Source of the DNA: Hyphomicrobiales bacterium
GTDB taxonomy: Bacteria > Pseudomonadota > Alphaproteobacteria > Rhizobiales > JAJFHB01
Length of the DNA: 58,946 nt
Assembly: GCA_021775615.1 (NCBI GenBank)
Contig: JAJFHL010000169.1
Span: 1-58,946, forward strand
Direction of reading: 5' to 3'
Part shown: positions 29,475 through 46,514 of the stretch, in pieces
Numbering within the stretch: position 1 is the first letter of the stretch
Layout: every line of letters begins with the position of its first letter
Notes under the pieces: model-generated
What the model was told of the DNA's origin: nothing
Database searches by the model: none
Seen by the model: the letters and a program-made list of their open reading frames with translations, nothing else
Position numbers and translations under genes: made by a program

Positions 29475-31043
29475 ATGAGTAACCTGTTCAAAGCGGTCCA
29501 GACCGCAGCTGTCATGTTCACCTTGCTGGTGGCCGCAGCCGTTTCCGCTTCGGCGGACAACAGGGCAGCTCCCGGCGATGTGGCCCGCTTCGTCGCCGGC
29601 ATGGAGCCTTCCGCGAACTCGCCGCTTGCCGCCATGACCAACGAGCGCAGCTGGCAACTCCACGCCAACCACTTCAACCAGGCCTGGAAGGCGCTTCAAC
29701 AGCGCCAGCTCAATCCCATCGCGGAGTGGCAGAAAGCCAACCTGACGAAACACAACGACTTCATGCTCTACCTGTTCTCAGGCCCGGACTTTCTCTACGC
29801 CAATGCGTTCTTCCCCAATGCGTCCACCTACATCTTCACCGGACTGGAGCCGGTTGGCACCGTCCCCTCGCTGACGAACCTGTCGGCCAGCACGCGGGCC
29901 TATTCGCTTCAGGCGCTGCGGGCATCGATGCAGACCATCGTCAACATTTCCTTCTTCATCACCAAGAAGATGCATTCGCAGCTCAGAGAGGGTCAACTCA
30001 CCGGGACGCTGCCGGTGCTCTACGTGTTCATGGCGCGGGCCGGAAAGACGGTCGAGAAGGTCGAACTCGTCACGCTGAAGACCGACGGCACGATCGCTCC
30101 CGCATCGGCAAACACAGAGCGGGCCGACGCGCCGGGCGCCAAGATCACGTTCTCCGATCCCGGCGGCAAAACCAAGACACTCTACTATTTCCGCACCGAC
30201 CTTTCGAACGGCGGCATGAAATATAACGGGCTGTCGAAGTTCATCGAAAGCCAGGGCACCGCCGATGCCCTGATCAAGAGCGCGTCCTATCTGATGCATG
30301 GCGGCAATTTCAAGACCACCCGAGATCTGATTCTCAATCAGAGCAGCCGCATTCTCCAGGACGATTCCGGTATCCCGTTGCGGTTCTACGACAAGGAAAC
30401 CTGGGACTTCACACCGTTCGGTTTCTATCGCGGCCCGATCCCGATCTTTTCCGGCCAGTATCAGCGCGACATGCAACGGCTTTTCGCCACCGCGAAAGCC
30501 ACGCCGATCAAGTTCGGTTTCGGTTACAAGTGGCGCCCGAACCAGTCGAACGTGCTGCTGTCCACCAGAAAGGTCATGCCGAAACCGGAGGCCGAAATGA
30601 AGCCGGAGGAAGAAGCTCCCGCCGAAGCGACCGAAGAGGCGATGACCAAGCCGGATGAAGACAAGGCCGAGGAGGCAATGGAAAAGCCGGCTGAGGAAGC
30701 CGCCGACGACACCATGACCAAACCGGTTGAGGAAACTTCCGATGACACCGTGGCGAAACCAGCCGGGGAGAACGCCGAACAATCCTCCAGCGATACCATG
30801 GAGAGCACCGAACAGGACACCGCTGCCGACGAGACAGCGGCTGAGGCCAAGGTCGATGTGGCTGCGATCTCCACATGCCGCGCCGACTGCGGTTCGGTGT
30901 ATGAACCCTGTCGCGACACCGCCGACGAGCGCATGGAGAGCTGCTTTTCGACAGGCGACAGCGTTCGGTGCCAGTCCACTTGGAAGGACGAGGCCGGCCA
31001 GTGCATCAACGAGCGCCTGGAATGCCTCGCCACATGTAAGTAG
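29475..31043 (+). CDS. Secreted protein with acidic repeat linker and Cys-rich C-terminus
   Basis: A 522-residue protein I do not assign to a named family. Signal peptide about 1-27 (cleavage after ASA). Residues about 35-365 form a globular domain (motifs LYLFSGPDFLYANAFFP, FITKKMH, LPVLYVFMARAGKT, LMHGGNFKTTRDLIL). Residues about 372-458 are a low-complexity linker of repeated K-P-x-E-E/D units rich in A, E, T. The final about 55 residues have eight Cys (CRADC, EPC, ESC, VRC, GQC, LEC, TC), suggesting four disulphides. AGGAG lies 9 nt before the ATG. Translationally linked to the APC permease, so it may act with it. Function unknown. Confidence 0.8.
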   Translation: MSNLFKAVQTAAVMFTLLVAAAVSASADNRAAPGDVARFVAGMEPSANSPLAAMTNERSWQLHANHFNQAWKALQQRQLNPIAEWQKANLTKHNDFMLYLFSGPDFLYANAFFPNASTYIFTGLEPVGTVPSLTNLSASTRAYSLQALRASMQTIVNISFFITKKMHSQLREGQLTGTLPVLYVFMARAGKTVEKVELVTLKTDGTIAPASANTERADAPGAKITFSDPGGKTKTLYYFRTDLSNGGMKYNGLSKFIESQGTADALIKSASYLMHGGNFKTTRDLILNQSSRILQDDSGIPLRFYDKETWDFTPFGFYRGPIPIFSGQYQRDMQRLFATAKATPIKFGFGYKWRPNQSNVLLSTRKVMPKPEAEMKPEEEAPAEATEEAMTKPDEDKAEEAMEKPAEEAADDTMTKPVEETSDDTVAKPAGENAEQSSSDTMESTEQDTAADETAAEAKVDVAAISTCRADCGSVYEPCRDTADERMESCFSTGDSVRCQSTWKDEAGQCINERLECLATCK

Positions 31044-31154: not shown

Positions 31155-31209
31155 AGTTGTGAGACTTGGAGCTTTTTCCTACGCCGGACCCTCCAGGGAA
31201 GGAAAAGCA

Positions 31210-33630
31210 ATGAAGTCACATGCCCAAGTGGTGGTTATCGGCGGCGGGGTCACCGGCTGCTCCGTACTCTATCATCTCGCCAAAATGGGCTGGACCGACA
31301 TTGTCCTGATCGAGCGCAAGGAACTGACATCGGGTTCCTCATGGCACGCGGCAGGAGGGCTGTTTGCACTGACCTCGCCGTCCAATGTTGCGGCGCTGCA
31401 GAAATACACCATCGAGCTCTATCCCGAAATCGAGAAGGAAAGCGGGCAATCGGTCGGCTTTCACCTGACCGGCGGCTTCCATCTCGCTCGGACACCGGAA
31501 CAGGTGACGGCGCTCAAGCTTGCATGCAGCCGCGGTCGCCGCAACGGCATAGATGCCGAGTTCATATCGCTTGACGAAGCCCGCCGCCGCTCGCCCATTC
31601 TCAATACCGACCAGCTCGAAGCGGTGCTTTGGGAGCCGCTGAAGGGATATGTCGATCCGGCAAGCGCGACCAATGCGTTCGCCATCGCGGCGCGGAAGAT
31701 GGGCGCCACCGTCTATCGCCACACACCTGTTGTCGAGACCAACCAGACCGCAGATGGTGACTGGGAGGTCGTCACGACCGAGGGCACGATCAGGACGCCG
31801 GTTGTGGTCAATGCCGCCGGTTTGTGGGCCCGCGAGGTGGCCGCCCTGGCCGGCGCCAAGCTGCCGCTGATGCCGGTCGAGCATCATTATCTCGTCACCG
31901 AGAACGTGCCGGAAATCGAGAGCTTTGATGGCGAGATCCCGACCATGACGGATTCGGAATCAGGGTGGTACATGCGCCAGGAATCGCAGGGCATCCTGCT
32001 CGGGGCGTATGAGAACACCTGCTATCACTGGGCCGAAGAGGGCACGCCCGCCGACTTCGGCCACGAGCTGCTGCCCGATGACCTGTCGCGCATGGAAGAT
32101 AACTTTGCCCGTGCGGTGGAGACCATTCCGTGCCTCGAAACCGCGGGCATCAAGCGGGTCATCAATGGCCCGATGATCTTCTCTCCCGACCTGTCGCCGC
32201 TGCTGGGGCCATATCCGGGCCTCAAGAACTACTTCTGCGCCTGCGGTGTCATGACCGGGTTCAATCAGGGCGGAGGCGTTGGCCGGGTGCTGGCCGAATG
32301 GATCGTCGACGGCGAACCCTCGCTCGACATTTTCGGTTGGGACGTCAGCCGGTTTGGCGCCTGGGCGGGAACCCGGTACACGCGCGAACGCACCCGATAC
32401 TTCTACGAACACCGCACCGCACGGATTTATCCGTATCAGGAGTTTCCCGCCGGCCGCCCGGTCGCGACATCACCGGTCTACGAAACACTGGTTCGGGAAG
32501 GAGCCGTGTTCGGATCGAACTTCGGGCTCGAGTATCCCCTGTGGTTCGCCCGCGACGGAGCCGAGCCGCGTGACGAGTACGGCTATGGCCGCGGCAACTG
32601 GTTCAACACGGTTGGCGAAGAGTGCCGGGCGGTGCGCGACGGTGTCGGCCTCTTCGAGGTTTCGACCTTCGCCAAGTATGAAGTGACCGGGGAGGGCGCG
32701 TCCGCTTGGCTCGACCGGATCATGGCGAACCGCATGCCGCGCGACATCGGCAAGGCGGTGCTGACGCCGATGCTCAGTCCCAACGGGCGCCTGATCGGCG
32801 ATTTCACCGTGACCAAGCTTGCCGAGGGACGCTACTGGATTCTTGGCTCGGGAACGGTGCAGCGTTACCACATGCGCTGGTTCGAGCAGAACCTGCCGCC
32901 CGAGGGGGTGCATGTCGAGAACCGGACGGCGCAGTACTCCGGCCTGCAGATTGCCGGCCCCAACGCGCGCGCGTTGCTTGAGCGTGTCGTCGGCGGTGAC
33001 GTCGGCGGCAACGCTCTGCCGTTTCTCACCGGCCGCGAGATGGAAGTCGGCCGTGCATCCGGCACGGTTGTCGTGCGGGTCTCCTACACCGGCGAGCTGG
33101 GCTACGAACTCTACTGCCCCGCCGGGTATCAGCGCGGACTGTTCGAATTGCTGCGCGAGGAGGGGCGCGACCTCGGCCTGAGGCTTGCAGGCTCGCGCGC
33201 CATGATGAGCCTGCGCCTGGAGAAGTCGTTTCCGGGCTGGGGGCTTGAGCTGGGCCCGGACTACACGCCCTATGAGGCCGGCCTCGGGCGTTTCGTGAAA
33301 CTGGGCAAGGGGGATTTCATCGGCCATGCGGCGGCGGAAAGGCGCGCCGGGGAAGGCCCGAAGGAACGCATCGGCACATTCGTGGTCGAGGCCGACGGCG
33401 CCGATGCTTTCGGCGGTGAAGCCGTCTATCGAAACGGAGACCTGGCCGGTTACATCACTTCCGGCGGGTTTGGTCACTGCGTCGGCGAAAGTCTGGCCAT
33501 GGGATATGTGAAGCCCGAGTTTTTCGAGCCCGATGGTGCATATCAAATCGACATCCTGGGCGAGCGGCGCCCGGCCGTTCTCGCGTCCGCGGCACGGGTG
33601 GACGCGGATGGCAACCGCATGCGCAGCTGA
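31210..33630 (+). CDS. FAD-dependent demethylating dehydrogenase, DMGDH-like (paralogue 2)
   Basis: An 806-residue FAD-GcvT fusion like the gene at 20648: N-terminal FAD domain (VVVIGGGVTGCSVLYHLA at 7-24), the SGSSWHAAGG motif whose His46 matches the covalent-FAD His of dimethylglycine dehydrogenase, and GcvT domains (about 410-800; conserved SYTGELGYELY and the LRLEKSFPGWGLEL core). Expected reaction: oxidation of an N-methyl group with transfer to tetrahydrofolate. The textbook WHAAG motif makes it the more canonical of the two paralogues. An AAGGAA ribosome-binding site supports ATG 31210. It follows a terminator, so it is transcribed on its own. Confidence 0.9.
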   Translation: MKSHAQVVVIGGGVTGCSVLYHLAKMGWTDIVLIERKELTSGSSWHAAGGLFALTSPSNVAALQKYTIELYPEIEKESGQSVGFHLTGGFHLARTPEQVTALKLACSRGRRNGIDAEFISLDEARRRSPILNTDQLEAVLWEPLKGYVDPASATNAFAIAARKMGATVYRHTPVVETNQTADGDWEVVTTEGTIRTPVVVNAAGLWAREVAALAGAKLPLMPVEHHYLVTENVPEIESFDGEIPTMTDSESGWYMRQESQGILLGAYENTCYHWAEEGTPADFGHELLPDDLSRMEDNFARAVETIPCLETAGIKRVINGPMIFSPDLSPLLGPYPGLKNYFCACGVMTGFNQGGGVGRVLAEWIVDGEPSLDIFGWDVSRFGAWAGTRYTRERTRYFYEHRTARIYPYQEFPAGRPVATSPVYETLVREGAVFGSNFGLEYPLWFARDGAEPRDEYGYGRGNWFNTVGEECRAVRDGVGLFEVSTFAKYEVTGEGASAWLDRIMANRMPRDIGKAVLTPMLSPNGRLIGDFTVTKLAEGRYWILGSGTVQRYHMRWFEQNLPPEGVHVENRTAQYSGLQIAGPNARALLERVVGGDVGGNALPFLTGREMEVGRASGTVVVRVSYTGELGYELYCPAGYQRGLFELLREEGRDLGLRLAGSRAMMSLRLEKSFPGWGLELGPDYTPYEAGLGRFVKLGKGDFIGHAAAERRAGEGPKERIGTFVVEADGADAFGGEAVYRNGDLAGYITSGGFGHCVGESLAMGYVKPEFFEPDGAYQIDILGERRPAVLASAARVDADGNRMRS

Positions 33631-34291: not shown

Positions 34292-34630
34292 ATGGAATTG
34301 AAACAGGAAACCCGGGAAAGAGCGCTTATCGTTGCACCAAATGGTGTGATTGATCACGATTCCGCCCCGGCGTTTGAGGAACAACTCCACAAGGTGCTGA
34401 AGAGTGCGGACGATGGCGCCTTGTCTTTGATTATTGACATGAAGGACATCGAGTACATGTCGACCGTCGGCCTGCGCGTTCTGATGCGGGTATCCAAGCG
34501 CGCGCGCGAAGCCTCCGTGGACATAAAGGTCGCCGGCATGAACGCCTGCATGTGCGAGATTTTCAAGATCTCGAGGTTCGACAAGGTGATGCAGGTGTTT
34601 GACACGGTGGACGCGGCTCTTGCGGGCTGA
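34292..34630 (+). CDS. STAS-domain anti-sigma-factor antagonist (RsbV/SpoIIAA-like)
   Basis: A 112-residue single STAS domain. The conserved loop IEYMSTVGLRVL is visible; Thr58 aligns with the phosphorylated Ser of SpoIIAA/RsbV, so phosphorylation control is expected, with Thr as acceptor. AAGG 7 nt upstream supports the ATG at 34292; the ATG at 34286 is too close to it. It is followed 31 bp later by a metallo-hydrolase gene and then the PP2C phosphatase that would dephosphorylate it, while the ATPase/kinase that would phosphorylate it is at 38833. Its final target (a sigma factor or other output) is not in the window. Confidence 0.88.
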   Translation: MELKQETRERALIVAPNGVIDHDSAPAFEEQLHKVLKSADDGALSLIIDMKDIEYMSTVGLRVLMRVSKRAREASVDIKVAGMNACMCEIFKISRFDKVMQVFDTVDAALAG

Positions 34631-34661
34631 ACCGGCATAGGGCGGCAGGAGGACGGGGACG

Positions 34662-35621
34662 ATGTTGGTCCGGTTCTGGGGAACGCGGGGGTCAATTCCA
34701 AAAGCCATGCGGGCCGAAGTCGTGCGGTCCAAGGTCATTGCCGCCCTGGTGGCGGCGGACGGCCGGCGCTTCGACAGCGAGACGGCCGTCGCGCGTTTCG
34801 TCGATGAAGAGCTGGAAATGCCGGTTGCCGGCACCTACGGCGGCGCCACCTCGTGTGTGGAGGTCGACGGCGGCGAAGGTGATTTTCTGGTTTGCGACAT
34901 GGGCTCGGGGTTTCGTGAATTCGGTATCGACGCCGCCAGACGAATGGCAGAAGGCCACTCGAAGACATTCAACATTTTCATGTCGCACATGCACTGGGAT
35001 CACATAATGGGCTTCCCGTTTTTTGGGCCGTCATTCGATCCCGAGGTCAAGATCCGTTTCTTCGGCGGTCATGACGATCTTGAAGAGGCGTTGCGGCGGC
35101 AGCAAGAGGAAATTTCCTTTCCCGTTCCGTTCGAATGGCTCAAGGCAAACATTGAATTCAACAAGGTGGTGCCCGGCGAAACGGTGGAGGTCGGCGGTTA
35201 TCAGGTTAGCACCGTCAAGCAGTATCACTCGCACGACTCCTACGGTTATCGCTTCGAGGCCGGCGGCAAGTCACTGGTCTACAGTACAGACTCCGAACAC
35301 AAGGATGATGATCCAGAAAGCGAAGATATGTTCGTCGAGTTCTTCCGGGATGCCGACCTTGTGATCTTCGACACGATGTACTCGCTCCTCGATGCCTGGA
35401 CGATAAAGCAGGACTGGGGTCACTCGAGCAATGTGGTTGCGGTCGATCTGTGCTCGCGTGCCGGTGCCCACCGGGTGGCGATGTTCCATCACGAGCCGAT
35501 ACACGACGACGCCGACATTCACAGAGTTCACACAGAGACGATCCGCTACGAAGAACTGATCGGCAGAAACTCGCGGCTCGAAGTTCTCTGCGCGTATGAC
35601 GGCATGGAAGTTGCGCTTTAG
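34662..35621 (+). CDS. Metallo-beta-lactamase-fold hydrolase
   Basis: A 319-residue MBL-fold protein beginning MLVRFWGTRGSIP, the start of the PhnP/cyclic-nucleotide-phosphodiesterase-like group. Metal motif SHMHWDHIMG (His109, His111, Asp113, His114), later YSTDSEHKDDD and HHEPIHDD supply further ligands. An extra helical insertion (about 14-52) lies between the GTRGS start and the TYGGATSCVEV strand. Expected activity is phosphodiester hydrolysis, possibly of a cyclic nucleotide; not readable. GGAGGA precedes the ATG. It sits inside the partner-switching gene set, which suggests a second-messenger or regulatory role. Confidence 0.8.
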   Translation: MLVRFWGTRGSIPKAMRAEVVRSKVIAALVAADGRRFDSETAVARFVDEELEMPVAGTYGGATSCVEVDGGEGDFLVCDMGSGFREFGIDAARRMAEGHSKTFNIFMSHMHWDHIMGFPFFGPSFDPEVKIRFFGGHDDLEEALRRQQEEISFPVPFEWLKANIEFNKVVPGETVEVGGYQVSTVKQYHSHDSYGYRFEAGGKSLVYSTDSEHKDDDPESEDMFVEFFRDADLVIFDTMYSLLDAWTIKQDWGHSSNVVAVDLCSRAGAHRVAMFHHEPIHDDADIHRVHTETIRYEELIGRNSRLEVLCAYDGMEVAL

Positions 35622-35651
35622 CGCCCTGGCGGCGAAGGCAATGGCGCACCC

Positions 35652-37814
35652 ATGAGCACCAGCACAGAAGCTGAAAAGCTGCGTCCCGAAAGCGTCTTGC
35701 TGATCCGGCTGATTGGGCTGATTGCGCTGATGGCATGTCTCTCGGCGCTCGCCGTTGGTCCGGCAAGCGAGCAGATCGGCCGTATTCGCGATACCGTTTC
35801 GGACATTTACCAGCGCATGGCGCCACGCCAGCCCCCGGAGGAGTTTCCCGCGCTCATCGTCACCATCGATCAGGCCAGCCTGGATGCGGTCGGACCATGG
35901 CCGTGGCCGAGAGCCAAGATTGCCGAACTCACTGAGCGGCTGTTCGAGTTGAAGGCGCAGGTTGTCGGGTACGATATTGTGTTTTCGGAACCGGACCGGT
36001 TTGGCGGGGAGAATCTCGCCAGAATATACCACGGCGAGCCGGAGGAGGTGAGGCAGCAGCTGCTGCAACTGGCCGATCCGGATGAGCGGCTGATCTCCGT
36101 CGTCAGCGGCGCCGGGAACTATGTTGTGGTGGGACGCGCCGGCGTTGGCGATCCCGCCGACGGCTCATCGCCCGATCCATCGGCGTTTCCGATAGAAGCG
36201 ACGTTCGACGGGGACAGGCCCCAGAACCTTCGGTTCTACCCCTCGGCGTTGACCAACATCGCCGATCTCGACGAGGTCGCCCTCGGCCACGGCCTGCTTA
36301 ACGGTGAACCTGATGGCGATGGTATCATCCGGCGTGTGCCGTTGGTTGCGATGCTGGGCAAGAGACTGGCGCCGTCATTCGCGCTGGAGCTCATTCGGGT
36401 CGCGGCGGTCTCAAGCATAGCGCAGAGCACCGGCGGCGCCGGCAAGGTTGCCAATCCCGACATCAAGCTGCATGTCGAGAACGGCAGGCTTACGTCCCTG
36501 AGTTACGGGCACTTCCGCGTGCCGGTCGAGGCCGACGGCACCATGCGCATTCACTTTTCAAGACCCGTGAAAGGCCGCACCGTTTCAGCACACGAGATCC
36601 TGGATGGAAAGGTCGATCCGATCGTCGTCGGCGGCAAGCTCGTCATCGTAGGTTTTACCGGCATCGGGATCGAAGATGTTGTCCCGACGCCACTCTACTC
36701 GGAGAACTCCGGTGTCGACATCCATGCCCAGGTCATAGAAGCGTTCTTCTACGATGGCTGGCTCAGCCGGCCATACTGGGCGCCGGCGCTGGAATGGGCC
36801 TGTGCCGCTTTGCTGGGACTGGTTGCGCTCTTGGGACTGCCGCTTCTCTCACCGGGACGGGCGGTGATTGTATCGCTGGTTGCCGCGATATTCGTTGTGA
36901 GTTTCAGTGTCGGTGCCTTTGCATTTTCAAGTTTAGTTCTCGACGCCACTTTGCCTCTCATGGGGGCGGGCATACCCGCCACCATCGTAATGGCGGGAAT
37001 CCTGCTTTCGACGGAACGGCGGCGGCGCGAGCTGCGCAGCATCGTGCAGGTCGAGGAGGCAAGGGCCGAGGAAGCCCAGAAGATCCAGTTCGCCATGCTG
37101 CCGACCGCGGACAGTCTGAGGGCGTTGCCGGCAGGCGTCGATGTCTGGCCGGTGCTTGAACCCGCACAATCGGTGGGCGGCGATTTCTATGATGCCTTCA
37201 TGCTCGATGACACGCGCCTGTATTTCACGGTCGGGGACGTCACAGGCAAAGGAGTGTCGGCCGCGCTTTTCATGTCGGTGGTGAAGGCGCTGTCGAAAAG
37301 CCTCATCCTGCGGGACGGCGGCGCGCTGGACCGGGCGGTTGTCGACATTTCAAGAGAGGTGTCGCGCGACAATCCGGACGAGATGTTTGCCACGGCACTG
37401 CTCGGTGTCATGGACGTCACGTCCGGCCATGTCGCCATGTGCAATGCCGGGCACGAAAACCCGATCATCGTCAGAAAAGACGGCACCGCGGAATTGTGGT
37501 CCATGGATGGTGGTCCACCGTTCTGCGTTATGGATGATTTTCCCTATCCGGTGGAGACGATGCGACTGGAGCCTGGAGAGGCACTGGTGATCATTACCGA
37601 CGGCGTATCGGAAGCATGGTCGCCCAAGGACGAGTTGTTCGGGCGTGAGCGGGTCCTCGATGTCTTTGCGAAGCTTCCGTCCTCGGCGCCATCAGAAGAG
37701 ATTGTGAACCGGCTGACAAAAGCGGTTCGCGTTTTCGAAAACAAGCGTGAGCCGGTCGATGATCTGACGATTATGGCGATCGGCTATCGGCGCGGCAGCA
37801 TCACCGGACAATGA
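35652..37814 (+). CDS. CHASE2 sensor - PP2C (SpoIIE-type) phosphatase
   Basis: A 720-residue sensor phosphatase. N-terminal membrane segment (about 18-38), extracytoplasmic CHASE2 domain (about 45-370; contains ALIVTIDQASLDAVGPWPWPR, the CHASE2 core), three further membrane segments (about 376-450), a short helical linker (about 455-478; QVEEARAEEAQKIQFAMLP), then the PP2C domain (about 485-715) with metal residues in VGGDFYD (509), GDVTGKG (527), NAGHENP (598) and TDGVSEA (650). It should dephosphorylate the STAS protein in response to an envelope signal. CHASE2 more often precedes cyclases or kinases. Its end overlaps the antisense FecR-OmpA gene by 14 bp. Confidence 0.9.
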   Translation: MSTSTEAEKLRPESVLLIRLIGLIALMACLSALAVGPASEQIGRIRDTVSDIYQRMAPRQPPEEFPALIVTIDQASLDAVGPWPWPRAKIAELTERLFELKAQVVGYDIVFSEPDRFGGENLARIYHGEPEEVRQQLLQLADPDERLISVVSGAGNYVVVGRAGVGDPADGSSPDPSAFPIEATFDGDRPQNLRFYPSALTNIADLDEVALGHGLLNGEPDGDGIIRRVPLVAMLGKRLAPSFALELIRVAAVSSIAQSTGGAGKVANPDIKLHVENGRLTSLSYGHFRVPVEADGTMRIHFSRPVKGRTVSAHEILDGKVDPIVVGGKLVIVGFTGIGIEDVVPTPLYSENSGVDIHAQVIEAFFYDGWLSRPYWAPALEWACAALLGLVALLGLPLLSPGRAVIVSLVAAIFVVSFSVGAFAFSSLVLDATLPLMGAGIPATIVMAGILLSTERRRRELRSIVQVEEARAEEAQKIQFAMLPTADSLRALPAGVDVWPVLEPAQSVGGDFYDAFMLDDTRLYFTVGDVTGKGVSAALFMSVVKALSKSLILRDGGALDRAVVDISREVSRDNPDEMFATALLGVMDVTSGHVAMCNAGHENPIIVRKDGTAELWSMDGGPPFCVMDDFPYPVETMRLEPGEALVIITDGVSEAWSPKDELFGRERVLDVFAKLPSSAPSEEIVNRLTKAVRVFENKREPVDDLTIMAIGYRRGSITGQ

Positions 37815-38790
37815 CCTGCACACGGCGATTGCGGTCGTTCTTGATGCCATCGGGAGTTTCCTCCATGCGGTCACGTTCGCCGCGCCCGGCGGCGCGAATG
37901 CGCGTGGGGTCCATTCCCCTCTTGACCAGAAGGTCCTTGATCTGGCCCGCGCGTTCGAGCGACAGCCGGTCATTGTAGGCGTCCGTTCCGGACCGGTCGG
38001 TGTGTCCGACGACGACCACATCAGCTTGCTCGCGGCTCTTGACGTCCTCGAAGATGCTGTTGACCGTCGCCTCCGATTCCACGGTGAGATCGGTGCTGTC
38101 ATATCCGAAATACAGTGTGTAATTGCTCGGTTGCGCCGGCATATTGTTCAGCAAATCGCCGTGCTCATCCAGAACGGCGGTGCTGTCTGTCTGTGTTTCG
38201 TAATCCTTCTGGCTGCCGAGTTTTGCAACCGAATAATCGCCCTGGACGACGGTGCGGTCTTTTCCTTCTGTGTCGAGGACGGCCAGCGCGCTGGGCTTGT
38301 TCTCGACTTTTTTGCCCGGCTCGGGCTTTTTTACCTCACTCGGCAGAAGCACGAGCGCAGGTTGGACCTGGACAATGAAGCGCGTGCCCCTGACGCCCAG
38401 AATGGACGTCGGCGTCCTGACCTGCATGGCGTCTTCGCGGTGGGCCGCGATCTGGCCGGATACGATTGCAACGGTGCCCTTTTCAATGACAACCTCGAAC
38501 TCACCTTCGTGAGTGGTTTCATTGAACTGGAACTCCGCCAGATTGATCCGGCTGTCGGGTCCGGTTGAGAAACGGCTGTTGTCGATGAATGTCACGGTGA
38601 TACGGCCGTCGCCGCCGGTCACCAGAATGTCACTTCGCTCCAGTGTCATTCCTGAGGTGACCGCGATTTTCTCATCGCCGCGTTGCACAAAGGCTTCACC
38701 GTTGGTCCTCTTTACCCGGCCGATCTCGGCCAGCGCGAAAGACGGTAGACAGAGCAACACCAAAGCGAGAAGAATAGCTTTCCGAAACAT
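37801..38790 (-). CDS. FecR-like domain - OmpA C-terminal domain envelope protein
   Basis: A 329-residue protein: signal peptide 1-21 (cleavage after ALA), a FecR-like domain (about 35-140; GMTLERSDILVTGGDGRITV, TPTSILGVRGTRF), a variable middle (about 150-205), then an OmpA-type peptidoglycan-binding domain (about 210-329) with GHTDRSGTDAYNDRLSLERA and the NRRVQV end. It should sit in the periplasm bound to peptidoglycan. A much longer reading from 39240 would cover the kinase gene antisense; the ATG at 38790, followed by an obvious signal peptide, is correct. It faces the CHASE2 phosphatase gene, so it may be its partner. Confidence 0.87.
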   Translation of the reverse strand: MFRKAILLALVLLCLPSFALAEIGRVKRTNGEAFVQRGDEKIAVTSGMTLERSDILVTGGDGRITVTFIDNSRFSTGPDSRINLAEFQFNETTHEGEFEVVIEKGTVAIVSGQIAAHREDAMQVRTPTSILGVRGTRFIVQVQPALVLLPSEVKKPEPGKKVENKPSALAVLDTEGKDRTVVQGDYSVAKLGSQKDYETQTDSTAVLDEHGDLLNNMPAQPSNYTLYFGYDSTDLTVESEATVNSIFEDVKSREQADVVVVGHTDRSGTDAYNDRLSLERAGQIKDLLVKRGMDPTRIRAAGRGERDRMEETPDGIKNDRNRRVQVIVR

Positions 38791-38832
38791 AATCAACCTG
38801 CGTTTTTCTTTGTTGGACCCGTCCCATACATA

Positions 38833-39270
38833 ATGTCTGTCTGCAACGAGAGCAATCCGCACACAAACCACCTGGCCGGAGCGGTGAAGTCTACGCAACT
38901 CGGAATGTCCGAGGCTTTGGACAATGCACGCGCCTTTGCAAGCGCAGTCGCGCTCAATGAGTTGACGCGGTATCAGTTTTTGATCGTGGTCGAAGAGCTG
39001 ATGACGAACATCATCAGCCATGGGCAACCCGCACAAACCTCGATGGTCGAGTATGAGTTTACATATCGGGACGGAGCGGTCCGTATCCATCTGACCGACG
39101 GTGGCGTGCCGTTTGACCCGCGCGAGTTGTCCGTGCGTGCCGCCGATGTCGATCAGGGACGCGAAGGCGGCTGGGGATGGCCCGTCATTCTCAAGTGGTG
39201 CAAGCTTTTGGCATACCGCCACGAGGATGGCCGCAACCATCTGGACCTGCTTCTCGAATCAAAGGAGTAA
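38833..39270 (+). CDS. RsbW-like ATP-binding protein (anti-sigma factor / serine kinase)
   Basis: A 145-residue HATPase_c protein of the RsbW/SpoIIAB type: N box EELMTNIISHG (about Glu54-Gly64), G1 box LTDGGVPFDP (about 88-97), G2-like EGGWGW (about 111). No His-phosphorylation or sensor domain. Members bind a target such as a sigma factor and phosphorylate the cognate STAS protein. It diverges from the FecR-OmpA gene, 42 bp away, and ends 7 bp from the stop of the convergent MttB gene. With the STAS and PP2C genes it completes a partner-switching set. Confidence 0.87.
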   Translation: MSVCNESNPHTNHLAGAVKSTQLGMSEALDNARAFASAVALNELTRYQFLIVVEELMTNIISHGQPAQTSMVEYEFTYRDGAVRIHLTDGGVPFDPRELSVRAADVDQGREGGWGWPVILKWCKLLAYRHEDGRNHLDLLLESKE

Positions 39271-39277
39271 GGGCACA

Positions 39278-40822
39278 TTACAGACCGGTGCGCTCGATCT
39301 CACTCTTCCGCCTTGCCATCAAGGCGTTGAGTTCGCTTTCGATGGCCGGGTCGATCGGCGGCCGCTCATAGTCGGCGAGCAGCTGTTTCCAAACACCGTT
39401 CGCCCGCTCGGTTGCGGTCCGAGAACCATCTTCTTCCCAGGTCTCGAAGTTGCGCCAGTCGGACAGGACCGGATCCTGGAAAGCCGTTTCGTAGCGCTCC
39501 AGCGTGTGGTCCTCGCCGAAAAAGTGCCCCCCCGGCGGCACTTTCAGGATCGCGTCCAACGCCAGTTCCTGACCGTTGACTTCAAGCGGTTGCAGTGTTT
39601 CGAACCACGAACGCAGCATTTCCGCATCGACCACCATTTTTTCAAACGAAGCGGTAAGCCCGCCTTCGAGCCAGCCGACACTGTGCATGACCATGTTCGA
39701 GTGGGACATGACGGCGGCCCACAGCGCCATGCCCGTTTCATAGACGGCCTGGGCGTCGACCGCGTTGGACGCGTTCACGCTGCTGGAGCGGTAGGGCAGG
39801 GCGAAGCGTCTGGCGATCTGGCCGCCGGCGAGCGTTGCCTTGACATACTCCGGCGTCCCGAATGCCGGAGCGCCGGACTTCATGTCGACATTGGAGGTAA
39901 ACCCGCCGAACACCACGGGGCAGCCAGGGCGTATCATCTGCGTCAGCGCAATGACGCCAAGCGCCTCACCGGTCTGTTGCGCCAGCGAACCGGCGATGGT
40001 GACCGGGCTCATGGCGCCTGCCAGAGTGAATGGGGTGACCACGTTGGGCTGTCCGTTTTCGGCCATTGCCATCAGGCCGTCGAGCAGATCCTCGTCGACC
40101 CGGCGGGGCGAATTCACATTGATGACGGTGTAAAGGCTCGGCTCGCAAAGCAACTGATCGCGGTCGCAGCCGCGCGCCAGCGCAACCATGTCCAGCGCAT
40201 CGAGGATGCGTGTGCGTCCGATGCCGCTGGCAAACCAGGCCTGGTCGCTGAGCGTGATGTGCGCCATTGAAACGTCGAGATGGCGGGTATCGACGGCAAG
40301 GTCGATCGGCGCCACCAGGCCGCCGCCCGAAACGTGCGTGACGCCGAGCCCATGAACGACTCGGATCAGGTCGCACAGTGTCGCAAAGTCGCCCGACTGT
40401 CGCCGGCGGTCGAGGCTCGAGACATTTGGCGGGCCGCCAACCGGCGCAAATGCGATGTTGGCGCCGCCGACGGTGATGTCGCGGTCCGAGACGCGGGCAT
40501 GCATCTTGAACCGGCTCGGCGCCTTGCCCACGAATTCGCGGACGATGTCGCGCCCGAGCCAGACCATCTGGCTCTCGTCATCGACCTTTGCGCCATTGTC
40601 CGCATAGATCTGGCGCGCCCGGGCGCTACGCACTTCCAGGCCGCCTTCCTCGAGCATGCGAAACGCGGTGTCTTCGATGCGTTCGAGGGCTTCTTCACCA
40701 AGGATTTCCACCGGTGCGAATGGGTTGGTCAACTCAGGCAGGCGGGGCCTTGCAACGCCGTTCGACCTTTCACCGCGGTCGGGGCGTCTTCGGCGTCCAC
40801 CTTTGTTGCGTCGCTCCGGCAT
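39278..40822 (-). CDS. MttB-family (trimethylamine methyltransferase-like) methyltransferase, non-pyrrolysine
   Basis: A 514-residue TIM-barrel methyltransferase of the MttB superfamily, reading through without an in-frame TAG, so it lacks the pyrrolysine of true MttB. Recognisable stretches are HVSGGGLVAPIDL, GFTSNVDMKSGAPAFGTPEY, YRSSSVNASNAVDAQAVYE and the C-terminal KVPPGGHFFGEDHTLERYE. Known non-Pyl members demethylate quaternary amines such as glycine betaine, carnitine or proline betaine onto a corrinoid protein. No corrinoid-protein gene is next to it. It lies 99 bp downstream of the LysR gene, same strand, next to soxBDAG. Confidence 0.85.
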   Translation of the reverse strand: MPERRNKGGRRRRPDRGERSNGVARPRLPELTNPFAPVEILGEEALERIEDTAFRMLEEGGLEVRSARARQIYADNGAKVDDESQMVWLGRDIVREFVGKAPSRFKMHARVSDRDITVGGANIAFAPVGGPPNVSSLDRRRQSGDFATLCDLIRVVHGLGVTHVSGGGLVAPIDLAVDTRHLDVSMAHITLSDQAWFASGIGRTRILDALDMVALARGCDRDQLLCEPSLYTVINVNSPRRVDEDLLDGLMAMAENGQPNVVTPFTLAGAMSPVTIAGSLAQQTGEALGVIALTQMIRPGCPVVFGGFTSNVDMKSGAPAFGTPEYVKATLAGGQIARRFALPYRSSSVNASNAVDAQAVYETGMALWAAVMSHSNMVMHSVGWLEGGLTASFEKMVVDAEMLRSWFETLQPLEVNGQELALDAILKVPPGGHFFGEDHTLERYETAFQDPVLSDWRNFETWEEDGSRTATERANGVWKQLLADYERPPIDPAIESELNALMARRKSEIERTGL

Positions 40823-40921
40823 CACTCTCGAATGGTCTCAACACTGTTCGCGAGCATAATTGTTGGTGCGCGCAGGTGGCGCTGCAACCGAATTCTTTCG
40901 GTGGTCTGCTGAATTCGAACG

Positions 40922-41827: not shown

Positions 41828-42011
41828 GATCCCTTCGGTCGGCTGACATTCTGGTCACCGGTGCGATCCACGTTCCCTAGGGGATGAATTGTTTTCAAGC
41901 CTGCTGCACCAAGTCAAGAAATTTCAGTGGCCCCTCAACCAATTATCTCTTATCAACCCTAACGCCATTGTGCGATGTGTGCGTCAGGACAAATGCGGCG
42001 ACCGTCGATTT

Positions 42012-43265
42012 ATGAAGTATTCAGCTCTCAACCTTCTGCGTCAGGCGATGGGCGGCCACAAGGATTGGCCGCGGGCATGGCGTGATCCCGAGCCAAAGGA
42101 CGCTTACGATGTGATCATCGTGGGCGGCGGCGGTCATGGTCTGGCAACAGCTTACTATCTGGCAAAAAATCATGGCATCCGCAATGTCGCGGTCGTCGAA
42201 AAAGGATGGCTTGGTGGCGGCAATGTCGGGCGCAACACAACGATCGTGCGCTCCAACTACCTGTTGCCCGAAGAACTCCCCTTTTATGAATGGTCGCTCA
42301 AGCTCTGGGAAGGTCTGTCGCAGGACCTGAACTTCAACGTGATGTTTTCCCAGCGCGGGGTCCTGAACCTGGTGCATTCGGACGCGGAAGTGGACGCGGC
42401 GGTGCGGCGCGGCAATGCCATGATCATGCATGGCGCCGATGCTGAGTTCCTGAGCCGGGACGAATGCGTGAAGATGGTGCCGGGCATCGACGACAAGAAT
42501 TCCCGCTTTCCGGTTTATGGCGGCCTGCTTCAGCCCCGCGCCGGCAATGCCCGCCACGACGCGGTGGCCTGGGGCTATGCCCGCGGCGCCGACGGATATG
42601 GCGTCGACCTCCTGCAGAATTGCGAGGTCACGGGGATCACCCGGGACCGGCAGGGCAGGGTGGTCGGCATCGAAACCACCCGCGGCAAGATCAGGGCGAA
42701 CAAGGTCGGTCTCGCGGCGGCCGGTCACTCTGGCCATGTCGCTGCGATGGCGGGACTGCGTCTGCCGATCGAAAGCCACAAACTGCAGGCGTTCGTCACC
42801 GAAGGCCTGAAACCGCTGGTCGACACGGTGGTCACCTTCGGCCACGGGCACTTCTACTTGAGTCAGTCCGACAAGGGCGGCCTGGTGTTTGGCGCCAGCC
42901 TCGATGGCTATAATTCTTACGCCCAGCGCGGCAACCTGCCGACGGTGGAGGCGACCATCGAAGCCGCCATGCATCTGATGCCCTCGATCGGCCGGGTGCG
43001 GCTGCTGCGGCACTGGGCCGGTGTCATGGACATGTCCATGGACGGCTCGCCGTTCATCTGCAAGACGCCCATCGACGGGCTCTACCTCAACGCCGGCTGG
43101 TGCTATGGCGGCTTCAAGGCGACGCCCGCATCGGGGTGGTGCTTTGCCCACACCATCGCCAATGACGAACCGCATGCCTACAACGCCCACTATACGCTCG
43201 ACCGTTTTGCACGGGGCTATGCGGTCGACACCAAGGGCGTGGGCGCGCAGCCCAACCTGCATTAG
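42012..43265 (+). CDS. soxB: Sarcosine oxidase, subunit beta
   Basis: A 417-residue flavoprotein subunit of heterotetrameric sarcosine oxidase, which converts sarcosine to glycine with production of 5,10-methylene-THF and H2O2. FAD motif DVIIVGGGGHGLATAYYLA (about 33-51). The RHDAVAWGYA segment holds His182, matching the His that binds FMN covalently in the Corynebacterium enzyme. ATG at 42012 was chosen from the family N-terminus (MKYSALNLLRQA); a 41-residue upstream extension is unsupported. It is the first gene of soxBDAG, 13 bp before soxD. Confidence 0.94.
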   Translation: MKYSALNLLRQAMGGHKDWPRAWRDPEPKDAYDVIIVGGGGHGLATAYYLAKNHGIRNVAVVEKGWLGGGNVGRNTTIVRSNYLLPEELPFYEWSLKLWEGLSQDLNFNVMFSQRGVLNLVHSDAEVDAAVRRGNAMIMHGADAEFLSRDECVKMVPGIDDKNSRFPVYGGLLQPRAGNARHDAVAWGYARGADGYGVDLLQNCEVTGITRDRQGRVVGIETTRGKIRANKVGLAAAGHSGHVAAMAGLRLPIESHKLQAFVTEGLKPLVDTVVTFGHGHFYLSQSDKGGLVFGASLDGYNSYAQRGNLPTVEATIEAAMHLMPSIGRVRLLRHWAGVMDMSMDGSPFICKTPIDGLYLNAGWCYGGFKATPASGWCFAHTIANDEPHAYNAHYTLDRFARGYAVDTKGVGAQPNLH

Positions 43266-43278
43266 GGAAAGCCGGACA

Positions 43279-43554
43279 ATGCGCATCAAATGTCCCGTAT
43301 GCGGCGAGCGGCCCCTTGAGGAATACGCCTATCGCGGCGACGCCAAGGTGCAACGCCCGCGGACCCACGCCCCCGACCAGGCCAATGCCTGGCACGACTA
43401 TGTCTATCTGCGGGACAACCCCAAGGGCCGCCAAAAGGAACACTGGCGCCATTCCGGCGGCTGCGGCGCCTGGTTGGTGGTCGACCGCGACACCTATACC
43501 CACGAGATCTTCTCGGTGCGCCTCACCAAGGCCGCCAGGCGGAGGGCGAAATGA
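43279..43554 (+). CDS. soxD: Sarcosine oxidase, subunit delta
   Basis: A 91-residue zinc-binding small subunit. MRIKCPVCGERPLEEYAYRGD at the start is the family signature; CPVCG plus a downstream His and the GGCGAW Cys are the zinc ligands. The ATG at 43279 follows soxB by 13 bp, and the stop overlaps the soxA ATG (ATGA, 43551-43554). A longer in-frame reading starting inside soxB is rejected. It stabilises the tetramer; no catalysis. Confidence 0.95.
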   Translation: MRIKCPVCGERPLEEYAYRGDAKVQRPRTHAPDQANAWHDYVYLRDNPKGRQKEHWRHSGGCGAWLVVDRDTYTHEIFSVRLTKAARRRAK

Positions 43555-46514
43555 GCGCGCAAGCCTACCGCTTGGAACGAGGTGGCCTGGTGGAGCGCTC
43601 AAAGCCGCTGCACTTCACTTTCGACCAGTTGCAGTATGACGGTTATGCGGGCGACACGCTCGCATCGGCGCTGCTGGCCAACGGCGTGCGCCTGGTCGGA
43701 CGCAGTTTCAAGTATCACCGCCCCCGCGGCATTTTCACGGCTGGAAACTACGAGCCCAACGCACTGGTGGAACTGCGCAACGGCGCACGCCGTGAGCCCA
43801 ATACCCAGGCGACCATGGCAGAGCTGTTCGACGGGTTGGAGGCGACCAGCCAGAACCGCTGGCCGAACCTTTCCCTCGACCTCTTGTCGGTCAATTCAAA
43901 GCTGTCGCCGCTCTTGTCCGCGGGCTTCTACTACAAGACCTTCATGTGGCCGCGCTCGTTCTGGACCAAGGTCTACGAACCGTTCATCCGCCGCGCCGCG
44001 GGCCTGGGTTCGGCGGCCGGAGCCAATGATCCCGATCGTTACGAAAAAGCCTATGCCCATTGCGATGTGCTGGTCGTTGGATCCGGGCCCGCCGGTCTGA
44101 TGGCGGCCGAAGCCGCGAGCGGTGCCGGCGCCCGTGTCATTCTGTGTGAAGAACATCCCCGTATCGGTGGCGCGTTGCTCACCGAGCGCATCGAAATCGA
44201 CGGCCGGCCGGGCCAGGACTGGGCGCTCGACGCGCGATCTCGCCTGCAGGCGTCGGGCGTTCGTATCATGCCGCGCACGGCTGTGGTCGGCTGGTATGAC
44301 GGCAACACGTTTGCGGCGATGGAGCGGGTCGCGGACCATCTGGCCGAACCGCCGGCGCATCTGCCGCGCCAGCGCCTGTGGCGTATTGCGGCGAAGCAGG
44401 TGGTCATTGCCACGGGCGCCCAGGAACGCCCGCTGGTGTTCCCCGACAACGATCGACCTGGCGTGATGCTGGCCTCCGCGGCGCGGACCTACGTCAACCA
44501 GTATGCGGTGCGACCGGGCCGGCGCGCCGTTATCTTCGGCAACAACCAGAGCATGGAAACCACGGCGCACGATCTTGCCAGGGCAGGTGTGGACATCGCC
44601 GCCATCATCGACCCTAAGGACGTTGTATCCTCCGACATTTCACACGTGGTGAGAGGCCAAGGTGTTGCCGTGGTCCGCGGCGGCCGGTCCATAAGCGGCG
44701 TCAAACCGTCTGGCCGCGGCGCAAAGACCATCGGCTGTGATCTGATCTGCGTTGCCGGCGGCTGGAACCCTTCGGTCCATCTCATATCCCAGCGCGGCAT
44801 GAAGCCGGTCTGGGACAATGAGATCCAGTCCTTCGTTCCACCCGTCACGTCGGGTCCGGGCTTCATCTGCGTTGGCGCCTCGCGCGGTCTCTATTCCACT
44901 GAAAGCTGTCTGGAGGATGGCTACCAGGCGGGCCTGGCGGCGGCGCGTGAGGCCGGTTTCAAGGACGTTGAGACCGCGACGCGGACTTTCACCGCAAGCG
45001 GCCCCGAGCAGGGTCGGGTCGAACCCCTGTGGCGCCCCGAGAGCGGGGCCAAGGGCAAGTGCTTCGTCGATATGCAGAACGACGTGACCGACAAAGACGT
45101 CTCGCTCGCCGCGCGCGAGGGCTATGTTTCCGTCGAGCACCTCAAGCGCTACACCACGCTCGGCATGGCGACCGATCAGGGCAAGACGGCAAACGTTCCG
45201 GGCCTCGGTCTTCTGGCGGGCGATCTGGGCAAGGAGATTGGCGAGGTCGGCACCACCACTTTCCGGCCGCCTTATGCGCCCGTCAGTCTGGGTGTGATCG
45301 CCGGTCATTCGCGCGGGCCTACCTGGCGCCCTGTGCGCCGCACCGCGTTCCACGGCTGGGCCGAGGAGCAGGGCGCGAAATTCATCGAGGCGGGCCTGTG
45401 GATGCGCTGGCACTATTTCCCAAGGGCGGGGGAGGGTTTTGCCGAAGCCACCGCGCGCGAAGTCAATCAGGTTCGCAACGCCGCCGGCTTCGCCGATGTC
45501 TCGACCCTCGGCAAGATCGACATACAGGGCAGGGATGCGGTCGAACTGATCAACCGGGTCTACACCAACAGCTTCACCAAGCTTCCCATCGGCCGCGCGC
45601 GCTATGGTCTCATGCTGCGCGAAGACGGCATTGCACTGGATGACGGCACGGTTACGCGTTTCGACAAGGACCGCTTCTTCATCACCACGACCACAGGCGA
45701 GGCGGGTCACGTGATGGAGCACCTTGAATACTGCCACCAGGTGCTGTGGCCGGAGCTGGACGTGCAGATGGTGTCGGCGAGCGATGCCTGGGCGGGCCTT
45801 GCCATCGCCGGACCGAAGTCGCGCGACGTAATCGCCGAACTGGTCGACGGGTTCGACGTCTCCAATGAGGCGTTTCCGTTCCTCAGCGCCGCCGAAATCA
45901 CGGTGTGCGGCGGCGTGCCGGCGAAACTGTTCCGCATCAGCTTCTCAGGCGAACTGGCCTATGAGCTTTGCGTCCCCTACGGCTTTGGCGATGCGGTGGT
46001 GCGCACGCTGGCCGAGCGTGGCGCCCGGCACGGCCTCGTGCCCTATGGGCTTGAGGCGCTGGGCATCATGCGCATCGAGAAAGGCCACGTCGCCGGTTCG
46101 GAAATCACCGGCTGGGCCACGGCGGGAGATCTCGGGCTCGGCTGGATGGTGCCGGAGAAAAAGCCACACAACTATATCGGCCGCGCCATGGCGGCGCGCG
46201 AAGGGTTGATCGATCCGAACCGCGAGGTGCTGGTCGGCCTGAAATCGCTGAACCCGTCGGAAAAGGTTCCGGCCGGGTCACACCTGATCGCGGATGGTGC
46301 ACTTAATTCGCCCGAGGCCGATCATGGCCATGTCACGGCCACCACCTGGAGCCCGACGTTGAACGCCTACATCGCGCTCGGGGTACTCAAGCGTGGCCGC
46401 GAGCGTCACGGCGAGATCCTGCGCGCCGCCAACCCCTTGCAGAAATACGACGTGATGGTCGAAGTGGCCGATCCCGTCTTCTACGATCCGGAGAACGCCC
46501 GTGTCCGAGATTGA
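43551..46514 (+). CDS. soxA: Sarcosine oxidase, subunit alpha
   Basis: A 987-residue large subunit. N-terminal ferredoxin-like region (about 15-95; FDGYAGDTLASALLANG style, GRSFKYHRPRGIF), an NAD-binding/FAD-like pyridine-nucleotide region (about 172-450; DVLVVGSGPAGLMAAEAA), and C-terminal GcvT tetrahydrofolate domains (about 600-980) where the methyl-derived carbon is transferred to THF. The soxD overlap is 4 bp, the soxG overlap 14 bp; both indicate coupled translation. Length is typical (about 970-1000). The GcvT half parallels those in the two DMGDH-like proteins of this window. Confidence 0.95.
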   Translation: MSAQAYRLERGGLVERSKPLHFTFDQLQYDGYAGDTLASALLANGVRLVGRSFKYHRPRGIFTAGNYEPNALVELRNGARREPNTQATMAELFDGLEATSQNRWPNLSLDLLSVNSKLSPLLSAGFYYKTFMWPRSFWTKVYEPFIRRAAGLGSAAGANDPDRYEKAYAHCDVLVVGSGPAGLMAAEAASGAGARVILCEEHPRIGGALLTERIEIDGRPGQDWALDARSRLQASGVRIMPRTAVVGWYDGNTFAAMERVADHLAEPPAHLPRQRLWRIAAKQVVIATGAQERPLVFPDNDRPGVMLASAARTYVNQYAVRPGRRAVIFGNNQSMETTAHDLARAGVDIAAIIDPKDVVSSDISHVVRGQGVAVVRGGRSISGVKPSGRGAKTIGCDLICVAGGWNPSVHLISQRGMKPVWDNEIQSFVPPVTSGPGFICVGASRGLYSTESCLEDGYQAGLAAAREAGFKDVETATRTFTASGPEQGRVEPLWRPESGAKGKCFVDMQNDVTDKDVSLAAREGYVSVEHLKRYTTLGMATDQGKTANVPGLGLLAGDLGKEIGEVGTTTFRPPYAPVSLGVIAGHSRGPTWRPVRRTAFHGWAEEQGAKFIEAGLWMRWHYFPRAGEGFAEATAREVNQVRNAAGFADVSTLGKIDIQGRDAVELINRVYTNSFTKLPIGRARYGLMLREDGIALDDGTVTRFDKDRFFITTTTGEAGHVMEHLEYCHQVLWPELDVQMVSASDAWAGLAIAGPKSRDVIAELVDGFDVSNEAFPFLSAAEITVCGGVPAKLFRISFSGELAYELCVPYGFGDAVVRTLAERGARHGLVPYGLEALGIMRIEKGHVAGSEITGWATAGDLGLGWMVPEKKPHNYIGRAMAAREGLIDPNREVLVGLKSLNPSEKVPAGSHLIADGALNSPEADHGHVTATTWSPTLNAYIALGVLKRGRERHGEILRAANPLQKYDVMVEVADPVFYDPENARVRD

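Follow-up and report, generated by a model that had tools for sequence, protein, structure and literature searches.

At positions 34,292 to 39,270 of a 58,946-nucleotide stretch of DNA from a Hyphomicrobiales bacterium (assembly GCA_021775615.1, contig JAJFHL010000169.1, positions 1 to 58,946 of the forward strand; the whole stretch is termed the window below) there are five adjacent genes that form a genuine signalling module, in which partner switching is joined to an apparent envelope sensor and to a probable output enzyme of the metallo-β-lactamase (MBL) fold. Families were assigned by Pfam and NCBIfam searches, and all five genes, placed where the first-pass annotation had them, give significant family matches and have intact catalytic residues. 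The features are:

34292..34630, + strand: STAS protein of the anti-sigma-antagonist type (PF01740, E=2.7e-17; TIGR00377 above cut-off)
34662..35621, + strand: MBL-fold hydrolase of the class II phosphodiesterase / RNase Z clade, the proposed effector (Lactamase_B_2, PF12706, E=8.8e-19)
34707..34829, + strand: helical insertion of the MBL protein, codons for residues ~16-56, between RGSxP and YGGxTSC (model helices, homologue comparison)
35652..37814, + strand: CHASE2-SpoIIE/PP2C membrane phosphatase (CHASE2 PF05226, 1.1e-49, and SpoIIE PF07228, 2.2e-44, in one polypeptide)
37801..38790, - strand: fused FecR-OmpA secreted protein (OmpA PF00691, 5.6e-19, and FecR PF04773, 3.2e-09, in one polypeptide)
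38833..39270, + strand: RsbW/SpoIIAB-like stand-alone kinase (HATPase_c_2, PF13581, E=8.8e-18)

The STAS, MBL and phosphatase genes follow each other on the + strand with 30-31 bp between neighbours, the phosphatase and FecR-OmpA genes meet tail-to-tail with a 14 bp overlap, and the FecR-OmpA and kinase genes are divergent with 42 bp separating their starts. The FecR-OmpA start is at 38790, with the signal peptide MFRKAILLALVLLCLPSFALA; a longer open reading frame (ORF) reaching 39240 was rejected, its extra length being due to upstream start codons within the kinase gene. A promoter and terminator scan gave no excess relative to shuffles, and the module's GC content at third codon positions is 69-73%, slightly below that of the flanks (74-79%). 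The first-pass annotation knew of no described system with this exact set, and a literature search, restricted to open-licence papers, gave no description of it.

The complete phosphatase-kinase-STAS circuit proposed at the outset is borne out by the family matches and by invariant residues in each of the three proteins. The phosphatase model (predicted local distance difference test score, pLDDT, 86) has a first transmembrane segment (TM1) at residues 11-34, a periplasmic CHASE2 domain at ~58-375, TM2 at 377-398 and TM3 at 401-426, after which an unbroken helix (433-482; TM4 plus linker) leads towards the PP2C domain (496-712). Aspartates D511, D529, D650, D703 and D704 of the latter are invariant, as befits a partner-switch phosphatase, and the closest solved folds are the RsbU domain of Rv1364c, RssB, SiaA and SpoIIE, all of which we take to be phosphatases of this kind. 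The direct fusion of CHASE2 to PP2C is also confirmed, with both domains in a single polypeptide, the other three CHASE2 proteins of the window genome being nucleotide cyclases. There is a single strong SpoIIE protein in that genome. (At G000:C264:3534-6839 (L168, L169) it has a second, weak SpoIIE-type match and, ~2.4 kb away, a sigma-factor match under the SigBFG cut-off; the two could be another phosphatase-sigma pair.) The kinase, with invariant N-box E55/N59 and G1-box D89, has the features of a stand-alone GHKL kinase and is the sole strong stand-alone HATPase_c_2 match in the window genome. Thr58 of the STAS protein, the predicted phosphoacceptor, is located where it was said to be (MST58VGLRVLM), at what we take to be the SpoIIAA Ser58 position, and so the Ser/Thr expected there of a partner switch is present. 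In an alignment of 15 STAS sequences (A1, from which that of genome G126 was left out) the preceding Ser57 is invariant and residue 58 is Ser in all 14 of the others, Thr being peculiar to the window protein.

Conservation was followed in 289 genomes sampled from the class. In addition to the window's, 11 of them contain a full-length relative of CHASE2-PP2C (E<1e-90). CHASE2-PP2C neighbourhoods, a genome-contig search and MBL searches together yielded 20 loci with module-type MBL, window included; locus counts contain close relatives and are not counts of independent events. Failure of co-conservation had been named in advance as refuting the unit, and the genes are co-conserved far beyond chance. 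All 20 loci have STAS immediately upstream of the module-type MBL gene and in the same orientation, and 15 have CHASE2-PP2C directly downstream of the pair. The other five comprise one broken by an insertion (L156), one continuing on another contig (in G195), two from which the phosphatase is absent (L155, L157) and one at a contig end (L158). Even in the phosphatase-less L155 and L157, and in G126, a genome without a kinase match, the STAS-MBL pair is retained, and MBL is the module member most tightly tied to STAS. The first-pass annotation had suggested that MBL may add a nucleotide-signalling arm, a side role that gives way to that of likeliest effector given its constant place beside STAS. 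Variants include two tandem STAS genes 5′ of MBL in the G081 module (L098:6867-7845), and, in the broken G679 gene (L156:4472-6736), a ~2.3 kb insert separating the CHASE2 and phosphatase parts.

Antisense FecR/OmpA lies tail-to-tail after the phosphatase in nine loci (the window and eight others; gaps of -14 to +8 bp), and RsbW is divergent from FecR in six contiguous module loci. A profile built from the module kinases was run against the 10 genomes in which RsbW was not seen next to the module; stand-alone RsbW was located elsewhere in nine, with zero match in G126, which has STAS-MBL only. In five (G608, G230, G082, G197 and G112) the distant RsbW is again divergent from FecR, with an adjoining OmpA match in three, and in G246 FecR matches weakly (E=6.6e-5), close to a contig end. 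In effect there are two cassettes, [STAS-MBL-CHASE2PP2C] and [OmpA-FecR / RsbW], joined or separate depending on the genome. That the same genes pair up again at separate sites argues strongly for one pathway, and we hold with high confidence that the genes function together. Distance-matrix correlations among STAS, MBL, CHASE2PP2C and RsbW (rho 0.46-0.67) are explicable by shared descent alone. The module recurs in many alphaproteobacterial families, its host genomes representing about ten or more as judged by family code, Novosphingobium records (L035, L037) among them. At one locus labelled Deltaproteobacteria (L036), which lies at the end of a contig, just the phosphatase and FecR/OmpA are seen, and in another (L097) the phosphatase adjoins a RecQ helicase gene, without STAS-MBL.

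The fused antisense FecR-OmpA gene that had been described stands for the window, but not for its relatives, where FecR (with signal peptide) and OmpA (with its own lipobox, e.g. LSAC, MAAC or LAAC) are two adjacent genes; in the fusion the lipobox is gone. Because FecR (periplasmic) and OmpA (a lipoprotein) are normally encoded separately, the conserved set counts six parts. ORF clustering round the module yielded just known parts, antisense shadows and lineage-specific genes, with no further conserved gene, and clustering round the in-trans RsbW loci gave RsbW, FecR, OmpA and no other conserved family. Fusion of genes that are otherwise separate suggests that FecR and OmpA pair physically. 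As to the sensor, the CHASE2 gene adjoins a secreted FecR-domain gene, and FecR is also beside non-module CHASE2 at L019, L067, L079, L086 and L090, the CHASE2 proteins at L067 and L090 being cyclases. FecR-CHASE2 clusters have already been published (PMC5192318, PMC9239204). The suggested link of FecR to CHASE2 is upheld by this recurrence outside the module and in the two published clusters, which makes it plausible that FecR-OmpA feeds CHASE2. FecR often neighbours the kinase gene even where it is distant from the sensor gene, perhaps reflecting a shared divergent promoter region. (A second, separate CHASE2-PP2C/FecR arrangement occurs in the small genome G098, at L105:7893-12760, where a CHASE2-SpoIIE gene is followed by one for a secreted protein whose family is unassigned, then by a FecR gene, with no STAS or MBL nearby.)

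The MBL protein has invariant metal-ligand motifs (SHxHWDH, H189, D210 and H276/H277 in 14 aligned sequences), and its HxHxDH motif and further His/Asp ligands on an MBL fold are those of a class II phosphodiesterase. Its model (pLDDT 79.5) is nearest in fold to B. subtilis YhfI, then to RNase Z, PhnP, PqqB, yeast PDE1 and Apyc1; YhfI and Apyc1 belong to the class II phosphodiesterases, and the preferred substrates of YhfI are cyclic AMP and cyclic GMP (cAMP and cGMP; PMC9117128). The closest MBLs, 59-62% identical, are from Novosphingobium, G525 and G608. Particular to module MBLs is the insertion of ~40 residues, modelled with helices at 18-31 and 40-51, since the homologues examined from outside the module skip model positions ~17-57; it is a natural candidate for a STAS docking or other partner-binding surface. 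MBL relatives across the phylum are located away from STAS and PP2C genes, and generic homologues (L109-L135) were rejected as module members, there being no STAS, kinase or CHASE2 within ~1.5 kb. Some relatives in the phylum are fused to a response-regulator receiver (REC) domain, cases in Pseudomonadota being L122:1411-2652, L135:1063-2295, L176:2058-4241, L179:1271-2659, L182:805-2418 and L183:1651-2952. In these fusions MBL is apparently the response-regulator output, and so this MBL type would serve as a signalling output elsewhere; the fusions, together with the module-specific insertion, argue for an output role here also.

The arrangement that these features suggest is a membrane-anchored partner switch with an enzyme, rather than a sigma factor, as output, and on balance we favour it, with moderate confidence. 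Periplasmic FecR(-OmpA), held to peptidoglycan or the outer membrane by OmpA, would signal the state of the envelope or of a ligand to CHASE2, and the continuous helix would relay this from the final transmembrane segment to PP2C in the cytoplasm. STAS Thr/Ser58 would be dephosphorylated by the latter and rephosphorylated by the RsbW-like kinase, and according to its phosphostate STAS would be either kinase-bound or bound to the co-encoded MBL enzyme, whose activity would thereby be altered, perhaps with docking on the helical insertion. The direction of signalling given here is inferred. The step in which MBL comes under STAS control is, taken singly, probable, though by no means assured. The chemical output is likely phosphodiester hydrolysis, with a cyclic nucleotide as the leading guess at what is hydrolysed. 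Nucleotide breakdown is an attractive guess because each of the other three CHASE2 proteins of the window genome is a cyclase, but a cyclic-nucleotide substrate is put forward tentatively. Equally tentative is the fuller version, in which, alongside CHASE2 proteins that are otherwise cyclases in the same cells, the CHASE2/FecR/OmpA sensor controls second-messenger breakdown by the MBL phosphodiesterase via phosphorylated STAS docking on the insertion.

Partner switches are best known for release of sigma factors, and a classical anti-sigma circuit, with RsbW holding a sigma factor encoded elsewhere, STAS relieving the hold and MBL as a co-transcribed accessory, is the obvious alternative. The domain set is as in sigma-B/F regulation, split rsb loci are known and Rhodobacter capsulatus RbaVW is likewise without a neighbouring sigma factor (PMC3999984). 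However, the absence of a sigma factor from the unit, remarked on from the start, extends further: no SigB/F/G-type factor exceeds the TIGR02980 curated cut-off in the window genome, and the sigma gene of a sigma-B/F circuit is lacking both within the module and in the conserved neighbourhood clusters. Nor would such a circuit predict that STAS-MBL is kept in G126 without any RsbW match, and we regard it as unlikely. Another possibility is that MBL works ahead of the switch or alongside it (e.g. by producing or clearing a ligand through which the kinase or STAS is tuned), the true STAS target being unlinked. STAS-MBL adjacency gives no direction, and other partner switches do act on unlinked targets, but preservation of the pair in loci without a phosphatase, and the occurrence of this MBL type as a receiver-domain output elsewhere, render this improbable. 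The presence in G126 of STAS-MBL alone, without kinase or phosphatase, might be taken to mean that the two form a constitutive enzyme complex with STAS as a structural subunit, later joined to a separate envelope switch; given a phosphatase directly downstream in most loci, and conservation of Ser57 and Ser/Thr58 in the 15 aligned STAS proteins (the G126 protein not included), that is very improbable. A chance neighbourhood of unrelated genes might seem to fit the sparseness of module-type MBL in the window's own order (one of 199 genomes, the window's only), but with order and orientation constant in many families, and the same genes re-paired in trans, co-conservation rules it out, and the probability left to it is negligible. 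For the sparseness itself, acquisition of the whole module by transfer is likely, a mis-binned window contig being a possible alternative.

Control of MBL by STAS is the simplest reading because the pair outlasts loss of kinase and phosphatase, and because the genome lacks a SigB/F/G-type factor over the cut-off. Several observations count against the proposed circuit. STAS-MBL adjacency might stem from co-expression instead of binding; other sigma factors are present in the window genome, so that an RsbW-sigma contact is possible; the distant RsbW of G281, G080 and G195 has no FecR beside it (in G281 FecR/OmpA stays with the phosphatase); and CHASE2-PP2C of G112 has no adjoining STAS-MBL. In addition, MBL scores 40.2 bits with the curated cyclic-nucleotide phosphodiesterase model NF041851, far under its cut-off of 400, and a cyclic-nucleotide substrate is therefore a lead only.

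We know of no STAS partner for the class II MBL phosphodiesterases YhfI, Apyc1 and Rv1339. The module enzyme has their HxHxDH motif and fold (Rv1339 being likened from the literature only; PMC9293780), but differs in its 40-residue helical insertion and in scoring below the curated family cut-off. Among the closest known systems are SiaABCD of Pseudomonas aeruginosa, HsbA-HsbD and BgrV-BgrR of Sinorhizobium meliloti, which likewise have PP2C, kinase, a STAS-like protein and an enzyme partner (PMC7647112, PMC8457831), the diguanylate cyclases SiaD, HsbD and BgrR being controlled by the STAS-type proteins SiaC, HsbA and BgrV (PMC8457831). SiaC is phosphorylated on a threonine (T68), comparable to the predicted Thr58 here (PMC7647112, PMC8457831). 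However, SiaABCD has a GGDEF diguanylate cyclase as its output and SiaC belongs to DUF1987, whereas the module has a Pfam STAS protein (PF01740, not DUF1987), an MBL hydrolase, CHASE2 and FecR/OmpA, with no conserved GGDEF near it. A Campylobacterota cluster (CHASE2-adenylate cyclase / FecR outer-membrane protein / phosphodiesterase / TPR) shares the CHASE2-FecR-phosphodiesterase neighbourhood, but its output is a cyclase fused to CHASE2, and STAS, RsbW and PP2C are not described for it (PMC9239204). The BiofilmReg operon of Burkholderia contaminans also has CHASE2 co-encoded with an envelope protein, LysM-FecR, though with LysM in place of OmpA and a histidine kinase plus response regulator as output (PMC5192318). 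RbaV-RbaW-RbaY of Rhodobacter capsulatus shares the alphaproteobacterial STAS/kinase/PP2C combination and a cognate sigma factor that was not found; it differs in that RbaY is a REC-PP2C protein encoded elsewhere and, in the part of the report available, MBL, CHASE2 and FecR are not reported (PMC3999984).

Near the module, but not conserved with it, are a gene for an MTTB-family methyltransferase without an in-frame stop and flanking FAD (flavin adenine dinucleotide) oxidoreductase and GCV_T-type genes (39278-40825, - strand; 31159-33630 and 41889-46514, + strand), which look like genes of methylated-amine catabolism. Further upstream (29475-31043, + strand) lies the gene for a 522-residue protein that apparently has a signal peptide; it matches no Pfam family, contains acidic Ala/Glu/Pro/Thr repeats and is Cys-rich at its C-terminus.

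With likely FecR and OmpA partners co-encoded, the module offers an experimental way into the question of what CHASE2 senses. The enzyme outputs of partner switches named in the papers cited are diguanylate cyclases, and a switch tied to an MBL-fold enzyme would broaden the effector repertoire; if the proposal is true, it would provide a concrete path from envelope state to nucleotide turnover.

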